This document shows, one piece after another, positions 32,701-41,700 of a stretch of DNA of 64,000 nt; positions within the stretch are counted from its first letter, which is position 1, and each line of letters starts with the position of its first letter. The notes below the pieces were generated by a model that had not been told where the DNA came from, did no database searches, and worked only from the letters and a program-made list of their open reading frames with translations. The stretch is from Owenia fusiformis (lineage: Eukaryota > Annelida > Polychaeta > Sabellida > Oweniidae), in assembly GCA_903813345.2 (NCBI GenBank), contig CAIIXF020000005.1, positions 40,117,375 through 40,181,374 of the forward strand, given 5' to 3'. Made by a program: the position numbers and the translations under genes.

Positions 32701-35700
32701 ACAGATGTCATCACTGAAATTGCACATTTCTGCTCAGGCCTTGAGACAGGAATAACAGTTCCGTAAATCTAATTTTGATTTTATCCATCTACATGATGAT
32801 AGACTTCAGTTCAGCATTAATCATGGCTTAAGTTAATTGGTCCTTACTGTAACTGGAAAGACTTGGGCAGTAATTTGGTTATAAAGCCTATCAAGAGCCC
32901 TATTGCTTATAAATGATAAAATATTTACCCAGTGATCTCCCCAGTTTTAGACCCAGTGGGCACAGCACCCACCTGGAATTTTGAAAACAGACTTGCACCC
33001 ACCTAAAAATCCATCTGCACCCAATTGAAAAGGGAATTTCAAAATTCTGTGGAGAACCCTGGTACTATTAAACAGTGAGCTCTCGATAAAAAGCAACCGT
33101 GAGTTGTTCCGATGTCCATAGTGATATTTTGAGCTAAATTGAGAGGATATAAGCTGATGAACAATTGGGGCAAAGAATTTGCACAAATACTCACGTCCAT
33201 TCACTGTGTCAGATAAGGATTTTTTTCTGCTAGCCATTTTGGCCACTAGATTTCAGATACCACTGGCCAAACAGATTTGGCACTAGCCAGTATAAAATTA
33301 AGCTAACATCGCAAATTTTTACGAAAATCATTTATTATGTCTAAAAAGTAAAGAATCGGCAATTTGTCAAATTTGTGCATCCAACTATAAAGTATCATTT
33401 AATTGCCTAATAATAACACTATGATATGATCATGATTTTTTTTTTTTTTTTTACATAACATAAACAATGACATAAAGTAGATAATTCATACAATTTTCAT
33501 TTTAATAGTTTTGATACAAAATTCCACTTTGAACAATAAAATACATTTTTTCTGTAATTAATTTCATATTTTATCAATGAAATCATGCTTTCAAATGTTC
33601 TTTGTTTTTTACTATTCAATTCTAAAATATATGATTTATAAATACTGTTTGTAACAATGCTGATAAAATAATTTAAAAAATGTGTATGTGAGTCATGGCC
33701 ATTATAACCAATTATAATTTTTCTGTAAGAAATATAAGGCCACATGTTTTATGTATCAGTGCCCATATATCTTTTGCTAAGGAACATTCAAAAATAATAT
33801 GTTTCAAGTCACATAAATTATTGCAAATACTACAATGATAATTATCTGTTATCCCATAGAGAAATAAGTCAGTTAATCCAGGAAGAATATTGTTAATTAT
33901 TTTGAAGTTAAAATTGGCAATTTTTTTGTCTTTAACTTTTATTATCTTGCTAGTAAAAAAATTTGGCCAATTTATTTCATCTATTTTACCTTCATTTGTT
34001 ATACAAAAATCTCTTTCCCATTTCTTGTAGGTAATAGACTGCGGACTATTCTGTAGAAGTGCTCTAGAAATGGATCTCGCTTTTCATGGAAGGTCACACA
34101 TTCCAACATATTTCAAACAATTTGTATGATTATAATAGACACTTTCTGGGTAGTTGGACTTTATGTAGGGGTGGCAGAAGGCCCTCAGGCCAATTTATAC
34201 CCCTACCCCAACAAAACCTTGGGGGTACTTTAATACCACCCAATAAAAATAATACTAATGCATATCAGATATTCATCGTTTTATAGTGGGCAGGGCATGC
34301 CATGGTTAGTCTGTGCCAGAAATTTCCAATCTCTGACTTATATGGTTACCATGGAAACAGTATTTATATCTCACAATCTTCTCAATTTGACCCCGTCCCA
34401 AATGTGTCCTTAAGTTCTCAAAGTGAAATATTTTCAAATCTGTTTGGATTTTGTGGCTGCAACTTTGTCAAAAGTTGAATTAATATGTATGTATTCACAC
34501 TAAAGCACTAAAAACTTGATATAATGATCTCATAAATTAATAATATTTATCAAATGTAGTCACACACAACTGCTTTTAGGGAAAAGTGGGCGTGGCACTT
34601 TTTGGTACTTGTGTAATTGTTGCAGCATTAAATGAAAAATACTTATTACACTAACAACAATTGACATTTAATTAGCATCTACTAACATTGTGTAACATTG
34701 TAGTATGTTCATTATCATTATTAGATACTTTAAATATTTTATATAAGTGTTATCATGACCCTTCCCTATCATAGGTCATTAATGGTCAAATTAACTTTTA
34801 AGTCCTAGAGGTCCTTAGTCTTTTTAGCTTGTCAAAGTCGTATTCATTGACTTGAAGCTAGAATATATATAGTTTCATTGATCAATAGCTATGAGTTAAA
34901 ATTGATTAATACATTTGTCAGGGTTAGAGCCATTTTATGCAATTGAAAAGTAATGGACCGACACTGATCAGTACCAAGTGAAGGTAACGGCCGTAACCTT
35001 CGCATCTAAGATGGCGGACAGTAATTGTCAATTTTGATATTTGTAATTTTCATTGAATTAAACTACTTTAGAGTTGATGTTATGCTTTGACATTTGCACC
35101 AAATCAGGCTTAAATGACATTGGAACCATAGATGTAGTAAACATGAATAAACGATATGTGAAATGTTATGCCCTGCCTTAATACATAACTAAGATTTTCT
35201 CGGATAAATGGTGTCTTACAATTGACTAACTGATTCTATTATCAACATCAGGTAATGCATGATCTATCCAATGGATTAACGAAAATACTTGATTCCAATA
35301 TGGCAAAATAAATTATTCCATGTATGAATTGCATAGTGCATCATTTTGCAGATATTACATAATGCATTCATTGACTCATGGTCAACAAGGTACGGGTAAA
35401 ACTCCTTTTAGTATTTCACAAAATAATGAAATATAAACAATTTACACATTTCTGAAATGCTGTACCTTTAGTGATTCCTTCAACCTGGAAAGTGGTTTGT
35501 TATGTTAAAACTTAAAATAATATCTAAACAAATCTGTTTAGTGTATAAAAACAATAAAAGTTAATATGTTTAATATCAAATATTATTAGACATATGAATA
35601 TAACCTAAAATAAGAAATCTTGTTCTCGTATTCCATTTTAAAATTGGTTGAATGATTTTGGCACAGTAGAAATGATGGTCATGATTAAATATTATATGTA

Positions 35701-38700: not shown

Positions 38701-41700
38701 TTAGGACTTGAAAATATTCAGAAATCCAATTTTTTTTATTTTTTAACTTTTCAAAAATATAGTTAACATTTAAAAATTCATTTTGAGTTATGAGATCTTT
38801 GACATAGATAATATCACTATCTATCCAAGATTTGAAGAAAAGTGGTTTGCCTTTCAATTGAAATAATCTGTTATTCCATATGGTTTGTTGGATTATTTCA
38901 TGGTGTTTTAATTTATTGATTATATCATGGTCTTTACAACTATTATATGCTTTTAGAACTTGTTTATAGAACACAGGCAGTCTATCAAGATGCTCATTAG
39001 AGAAAACATTCATTTTTAATAAAATGTCCATATTCGGAGCCAGTTTGCTAAAATAAAAGTACGGAATTTTATTAAATGTGTTTTTTTTGTCATATATACG
39101 ACTAATCCATACAGCTTTTAGAGCATTTAGCTGTGATTGAAAATCTAACATGTTTAGACCTCCACTGTCTATAGAGTTTATTACAATAGTTCGTCTTATC
39201 TTGTCTTTCTTCCCATCCCATAAAAAGTTGTATATTAAATTGTTAATTCGTTTAATAATTTCTTCTTTAAATTAATCATGATATGATCATGATTAAAAAT
39301 GTATCATGGGCTGGGGGAGAGGGGGGTGGTAGCATTCCGCCTCCATAAAATAATTGATATAATTTAGAACCCATCTTGTGCAAACTGAGCATGATATTCC
39401 TCATAAAAGTCAAAAAAATTAATGGAGAACAAAAATGCACGTGGCTTAGTAACAGTAATCGCCATTTTTAGCGCCGACCCCCTTATAACCATTCACCCCG
39501 CTTCACAAAGTTCATGAAATATCAAGGAATAACCAAGTATTATTACCAAATACACAGAAAAAATAATTTCCTAAAGAAGTCAGCGGGCTATAATAGAGTA
39601 CTTCATCATAACTTACACTAAGATGCAGAAAAAGTGGCGCATTTTGTAATTCAATGCATCATCATTACATGTTAAATATCTATCGTTTGATGCGATCCAC
39701 ATTATAGTAAACCAATATTTTGATGAATGAAGAAAGAAATATCAGAGTTTAAAAGTTTTTTTTCGGCGATAGCTTCTGCGCAGTTTTTATTCGCATCTGA
39801 TCTCTTCGACCAATCAGAACTCTCGAATAAAGAAATCCAGAGCACGGCCAATCAGAATCCACGATAGAAAACGTTTTGGGATCGATCAAGAAGGAATATC
39901 CGGATGTTCTGGATTTTCGATCTCGTTGAGTTCCTTGGCAGAAGTATGCACTTATCTCCGGGTTTTCAAGTCTGATTTGATCCCAGATCGCCAATATGGC
40001 AAGTGCTCCATAAAAACTGTTCGCCAGATGTATTTTCTGATGGCATTTGGCGAATGGCGACCGCTTATCCGACACACAGCCATTGCTTCAACGTTCGTCA
40101 GCCATCTGATTTCTTGGAAATTCATCGCCTTAAAATATCACGTGACGTGTACATTAAAGCCATTTGGATAAGTAGCGTTGATTGACCTCTCTCTGTATAT
40201 TCGGCCCATGTGGTCTAGGGGAAAAATGCTCGTTTTCAGTGCTGTCATACCATGGTTCAACTCCCGTCTTATCTGAAATGATATTTTATTTTTTGTTGTG
40301 CTTTTATTCTGCACTGGAAATACCGTTATTAACGCCCATATTTTTTGACATTAAGATAGATAAGAAGGGAAGGTGATGTTCCTATATACGTGCAAGCTCT
40401 TGTATTTTCTAGTCCTGTTGAAATCGGGGTTCTACTTGACAAAATGGTTGAATTTAAGACTTATTCCGTTTCAGACTGATATTAACTTGCCATATCTTAC
40501 AATGGATGCCAGTGGACCAAAACATATGAATCTACAACTGACACGTTCCAAATTTGAGAGCATTGTCGATGGTCTGGTAAAGAGAACTATTGGCCCATGT
40601 CACAAAGCAATGCAGGATGCAGATGTATCTAAGTCTAACATAGGAGAGGTGCTACTAGTCGGAGGAATGACCAGAATGCCAAAGGTTTGAAATATTCATA
40701 CATATGATTCTAACTAAAAACTTTCAGTTGACAATTCCAAATTCAATGTATGTTTACATGACAACTCGGACTCTGGATAACTTATGATGGATTTGGCGGG
40801 GATTTCCACTAAAGATGAAATAATGTTGATGCAATATAGATTGGATAGACATATCATGCAGGTGACATTTGCTTTGAAATATTCTCTCACGAACATTGTA
40901 TATAAAAATGAGACTTGGCATATCATCATGAATGCTTCAAGTGCAATTAACAATTAACATAAATTTCATATAGTTACGAATTCGAAAATCAATTGCTGTA
41001 ACCATGGATATAATGATGTCACAGTTAGAAAACAATGGACTTTATGAATTCTTAACTTTAAGAAGTTTCTGTTAATGGCCCCCTGGTCACTAAATCCATA
41101 TTTTAATCATTCTATGGCAAACAGTGTTTTTCTTGGTATTTCAGTTATGCTGAAGGAAGATGTGATTTACAATGGAACAAATATATATATCTCCATCCAT
41201 GTTTCTTTTATTAGGTACAAACTATTGTCCAGGATGTGTTTGGCAGAAGCCCTAGCAAGTCAGTGAACCCTGATGAGGCAGTTGCCATTGGCGCCGCTAT
41301 CCAAGGTGGTGTCCTCGCTGGTGATGTAACAGATGTCCTACTCCTAGATGTCACCCCCTTGTCCCTGGGTATTGAGACTCTAGGAGGAGTGTTCACCAAG
41401 CTAATCAACAGAAATACAACTATTCCCACCAAGAAAAGCCAGGTATAGTTTCTATGAATTACTCATTGTAATAAGGGATCTCCATATTTTGAAAATTCTT
41501 CTGAAATAAACCTGATTTTCACATTCACATGAATTTTGTTTTACTCTGTGTAGCATATTTTGTTGCCTGTTTATCCTCTTTATCTTACTTTGAAAGTAGT
41601 AAGCAAAAGTACAGCTCTTGCACCCTTCAGCAACATCAACAATTACATAATATAAGGTATAATTGTTTCACTATTCCATGTTGCAGGTGTTTTCAACAGC

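Follow-up and report, generated by a model that had tools for sequence, protein, structure and literature searches.

How did a 7,906-bp intron of a mortalin (HSPA9) gene come to hold the two halves of a LINE with some 4.5 kb of other DNA between them? The history that we favor, at about three chances in four, is one of two successive transpositions, in which a LINE arrived first and was then split by a non-autonomous 4.5-kb DNA element with long inverted arms, probably of the PHIS kind. The nest is an ordinary genomic fossil, in which a broken short LINE copy, lying in a chaperone-gene intron, was split by a second mobile element; animal genomes commonly contain such nested insertions. It also offers a clean example of relative dating, in that the interrupted reading frame can be used as a ruler for the ends of the DNA element.

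A split LINE copy in a mortalin intron

The exons on either side of the intron, ending in ...SSALQ at 32568 and beginning with TDINLPY... at 40475, match mitochondrial Hsp70 and DnaK, and the intron itself has GT/AG ends (Table 1). The LINE, the DNA element and the duplicated target copy together fill 5,857 of its 7,906 bp (74%), which bears out the proposal of a sequence-only reading of this locus that a LINE split by a DNA element within one mortalin intron explains most of the intron's length. Elsewhere in the intron, at 39752-40168, an ORF of 112 aa overlaps one of 132 aa on the opposite strand, and neither has a Pfam match.

The LINE is a 5'-truncated, poly(A)-tailed copy of about 1.34 kb without its insert and lies on the minus strand, antisense to the mortalin gene. 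As had been noted from the letters, it is bounded by identical 17-bp duplications and its coding sequence is split. The left duplication runs directly into 15 T, and a minus-strand frame of 247 aa reaches 38531, with LINE-like coding restarting at about 34034. The 17-bp repeat occurs exactly twice in the window (the whole 64-kb stretch of DNA that was analyzed), with no copy on the opposite strand, and an exact 17-bp direct repeat turned up anywhere in only 3 of 400 Markov-1 samples of 33000-39800 when simple-sequence words were excluded. The sequence of the empty site on the plus strand, ...ATGATT|AAAAATG, fits nicking followed by TT priming on the poly(A) tail, a mechanism generally known from L1-type elements. 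The LINE would have entered the intron antisense by target-primed reverse transcription, with the plus strand nicked after ...ATGATT at 39294, the terminal TT priming on the poly(A), synthesis ending in 5' truncation and the target duplicated over 17 bp.

The same reading had called the LINE Tx1/L1-like. This is plausible, but the clade is not established, given a sub-threshold zf-RVT match and no PDB relative. The 3' part carries a CX2CX7HX4C motif (spacing judged by eye), and the Pfam zf-RVT family, a C-terminal zinc knuckle, scores 26.5 bits on an 82-aa piece and 22.5 bits on the joined frame, below its cut-off of 27.5. Pfam scans gave no match for the 247-aa stretch and no reverse-transcriptase domain in the truncated LINE, joined frame included. 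A PDB search with the joined frame returned only virginiamycin B lyase (E 0.11 and 0.76), which we take as chance, and an AlphaFold model of the 247-aa part, made without relatives, was too poor to use (pLDDT 36.7, pTM 0.20). Searches of the joined frame against a viral collection (9 pattern stretches) and of the 5' part against a prokaryote collection (64 stretches) yielded no confirmed match, an absence that means little.

Table 1. Positions of the features of the nest, numbered from the first letter of the window.
Feature	Position	Strand	Details
Mortalin/HSPA9 intron holding the nest	32569-40474	+	7,906 bp; donor ACAG|GTAGGG, acceptor TTTCAG|ACTGAT
LINE target-site duplication, copy 1 (LINE 3' end)	33421-33437		17 bp, identical to copy 2
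LINE poly(A) tail	33438-33452	-	15 T on plus strand directly after the duplication; 17 counting the duplication's terminal TT
LINE 3' part	33453-34034	-	coding frame ends at stop codon 33712-33714; a 3' UTR of 259 bp follows
DNA-element target duplication, copy 1 (preferred parse)	34032-34034		TAA (TTA on LINE strand)
DNA element (preferred parse)	34035-38532		4,498 bp, ends TAGACTG...CAGTCTA; alternative 34036-38531 with AT duplication
Left inverted arm	34035-34765	+	outer 19 bp 34035-34053; unlike spacer 34054-34080; core 34081-34765
Hairpin-forming near-palindrome in element	36603-36678		possibly a smaller (third) nested repeat; DNA fold of 36590-36700, z-score -7.39
Right inverted arm	37813-38532	-	core 37813-38496; unlike spacer 38497-38513; outer 19 bp 38514-38532
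DNA-element target duplication, copy 2 (preferred parse)	38533-38535		TAA
LINE 5' part, truncated frame	38533-39277	-	placed after the reverse-transcriptase domain; Pfam finds no such domain there
LINE target-site duplication, copy 2 (LINE 5' end)	39278-39294		17 bp, identical to copy 1

The interrupted frame as a ruler for the element ends

The ends of the DNA element had been given as base-exact, on the argument that deleting 34037-38530 together with one TA joins the LINE halves in a continuous frame. That deletion excises 4,496 bp, a length of 2 mod 3, so that the frame fails after 258 codons and a TA duplication is disfavored as the insertion mark; either TAA/TTA or AT restores the frame. 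Near the junctions, 13 parses have ends that agree at 14 or more of 19 positions; we compared them, taking for each the longest duplication in its flanks. The frame continues, over 347-355 codons, in seven of the 13, and in-frame joining by itself has a chance of about 1/3. Besides 34035-38532 with TAA and 34036-38531 with AT, the seven include five parses whose duplication is 0-1 bp long or whose ends do not match. The parse 34027-38540 with TT (347 codons) has zero matching end bases and is therefore not credible. Only the TAA and AT parses combine the frame, a duplication of at least 2 bp and a perfectly matching inverted end: the former removes 4,501 bp, leaves 352 codons free of stops and shifts, and has seven perfect end bases, while the latter removes 4,498 bp, leaves 353 codons and has six. 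Since two credible, frame-consistent parses are left, the element boundaries are not base-exact.

Between these two, we prefer TAA/TTA as most likely because it gives the longest duplication, and because an element that begins with T and ends with A then produces the AT repeat automatically, while an AT duplication would yield the TAA repeat only by coincidence. The argument is one of likelihood and not proof.

A Tc1/mariner-type insertion of 34037-38530 (GACTG...CAGTC), with a TA duplication and an unrelated 1-bp shift of the LINE near the junction, seems to us improbable. The TA duplication is perfect and the GACTG/CAGTC ends match, but the broken frame would require that shift to fall within about 16 codons of the junction in a frame that is otherwise intact, the additional TTA/TTA identity of the flanks is left to chance, and the ends differ from the CAGT that is typical of Tc1/mariner elements.

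Inverted arms, order of events and relative age

The DNA element has long inverted arms, which were absent from the earlier account. The arm cores form an inverted match over 685 bp at 91.4% identity, with 58 mismatches among 684 aligned bases (34 transitions, 24 transversions; K2P 0.090), and the outer 19 bp are identical at 17 of 19 positions; the spacers between outer ends and core, 27 bp on the left and 17 bp on the right, are dissimilar. The element has a GC content of 0.330 against 0.232 and 0.252 in the two LINE parts. No open frame of at least 74 aa lies wholly within it, and of its 12 interior ORFs that reach 60 aa, the 10 scanned against Pfam gave nothing at cut-off; one of them matches a KDZ-transposase-associated family at E 0.028, with 15 bits where the cut-off is 26.9, and we take this match as chance.

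Within the 64-kb window there is no second copy of the arms or of the LINE. Three scraps of 34-49 bp that share 82-85% identity with the element interior lie around 19.4-19.6 kb and at about 28.0 kb, two of them (38 and 49 bp, 82-84%) at 19434-19564. A search for the TIR ends gave two exact matches in the window by construction, the pattern having been built from those same ends, and a weak third match at 16432-16450 (3 mismatches) was rejected for want of arm homology alongside. The TIR 19-mer pattern had no match in the viral or the prokaryote collection, which means little for an animal element; Rfam gave no match at gathering score over the window, and literature searches named no element with these ends among the papers listed. 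The window also contains four tandem arrays, at 17289-17682 (50-bp unit, 8 copies, 94% match), 27010-27118 (23-bp unit, 4.7 copies, 100%), 54012-54728 (26-bp unit, 27.6 copies, 94%) and 59525-60397 (162-bp unit, 5.4 copies, 91%), and a long minus-strand ORF at 50767-51903 that matches BTB (E 4.5e-17) and also takes in the end of a sub-threshold match to Ras, as in RhoBTB-type proteins.

The split LINE frame places the LINE before the DNA element, so this part of the order proposed earlier stands; that the second event also happened at the present locus, and not in a parent LINE copy, is what we infer. The cut-and-paste element would have landed in a LINE copy that was already dead, with TTA (TAA on the plus strand) as its most likely target and 3 bp duplicated. 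The transposase that mobilized it would have acted in trans from another locus and was probably of the PIF/Harbinger-ISL2EU (PHIS) kind. The order would be the same had a parent LINE acquired the DNA element elsewhere, before the 5.8-kb, 5'-truncated composite was retrotransposed here, and a 17-bp duplication bounding the whole composite is predicted by that route too. We regard it as very improbable, as an interrupted ORF2 cannot provide its own enzyme while LINE enzymes favor their own RNA, and the 685-bp inverted arms would be expected to make a poor template.

In a neutral model with assumed rates, in which the 9% divergence of the arms (about 0.045 per arm) all arose after insertion, the chance that the 352-codon LINE frame would survive intact was 0.137, 0.012 and 0.00075 at indel:substitution ratios of 0, 0.05 and 0.1 (4,000 trials per ratio), and that of the 17-bp pair staying identical was 0.21. 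The arms had therefore probably already diverged before the present copy landed, and both insertions are probably young, a model-based conclusion that uses the frame of the preferred TAA parse and weakens if indels are rare.

Comparison with known element families

Correcting the target duplication from TA to TTA or AT shifts the likely superfamily. Judged by that duplication alone, the sequence favors a non-autonomous PHIS-like element over a TA-type (Tc1/mariner-like) one, and since it has no transposase and no second copy, we use PHIS-like as a description of the target duplication and do not file the element as a member. Duplications of 3 bp are also known from Zator and other superfamilies, and Academ, listed with 3-bp duplications in PMC5199201, may be an alternative. 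Kolobok is rejected, since its duplication is TTAA (PMC9587614) and the flanks here read GTAA (left) and TAAA (right).

PIF/Harbinger and ISL2EU are both placed in the PHIS superfamily in the sections of PMC4482050 that treat them. There, PIF/Harbinger elements have TWA target duplications and TIRs of 5-1042 bp, about 93% of them under 60 bp, that usually start with A or G (PMC4482050). The TAA/TTA duplication of our element fits TWA and TIRs of up to 1042 bp are on record, whereas its start with T (TAGACTG) and its arms of about 700 bp, far longer than most, set it apart; the A or G start being only usual, the T does not exclude membership. The DDE transposase and Myb/SANT protein that mark autonomous PIF/Harbinger members were not found in the 10 of 12 interior ORFs (at least 60 aa) that were scanned, and the same would be expected of a non-autonomous copy.

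ISL2EU elements, in the same sections, have AT duplications within A|AT|T and TIRs of 6-259 bp that usually start with GG (PMC4482050). An ISL2EU-type insertion would correspond to 34036-38531 (AGACTG...CAGTCT) with an AT duplication and an empty frame reading KWF-I-TYKKW, and we consider it unlikely. It keeps the frame intact and has the group's AT with an A 5' of it, but only 2 bp are duplicated, the 3' neighbor is A and not T, the ends start with AG and not GG, the arms exceed the reported range, and a TAA duplication around a T...A element would yield the same AT repeat.

An improbable idea is that the element is the first of a non-autonomous PHIS-type family not yet described, with unusually long arms made of short outer ends, a dissimilar spacer of 17-27 bp and a 685-bp inverted core. 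As the element sits in a mortalin intron, it is conceivable that its arms, if transcribed, could form long dsRNA, which might undergo editing or give rise to small RNAs.

The LINE shares 5' truncation, a poly(A) tail and a long target duplication (17 bp here) with L1/Tx1-type non-LTR retrotransposons; a zf-RVT-like C-terminus is a further trait of that family, and the present copy, which keeps only its last 352 codons, matches this domain below threshold. The DNA element, finally, recalls foldback-type elements such as Tetris of Drosophila virilis, whose interior, lacking a gene, lies between long inverted arms; its own long arms likewise surround an interior with no detected gene, a likeness drawn from description.
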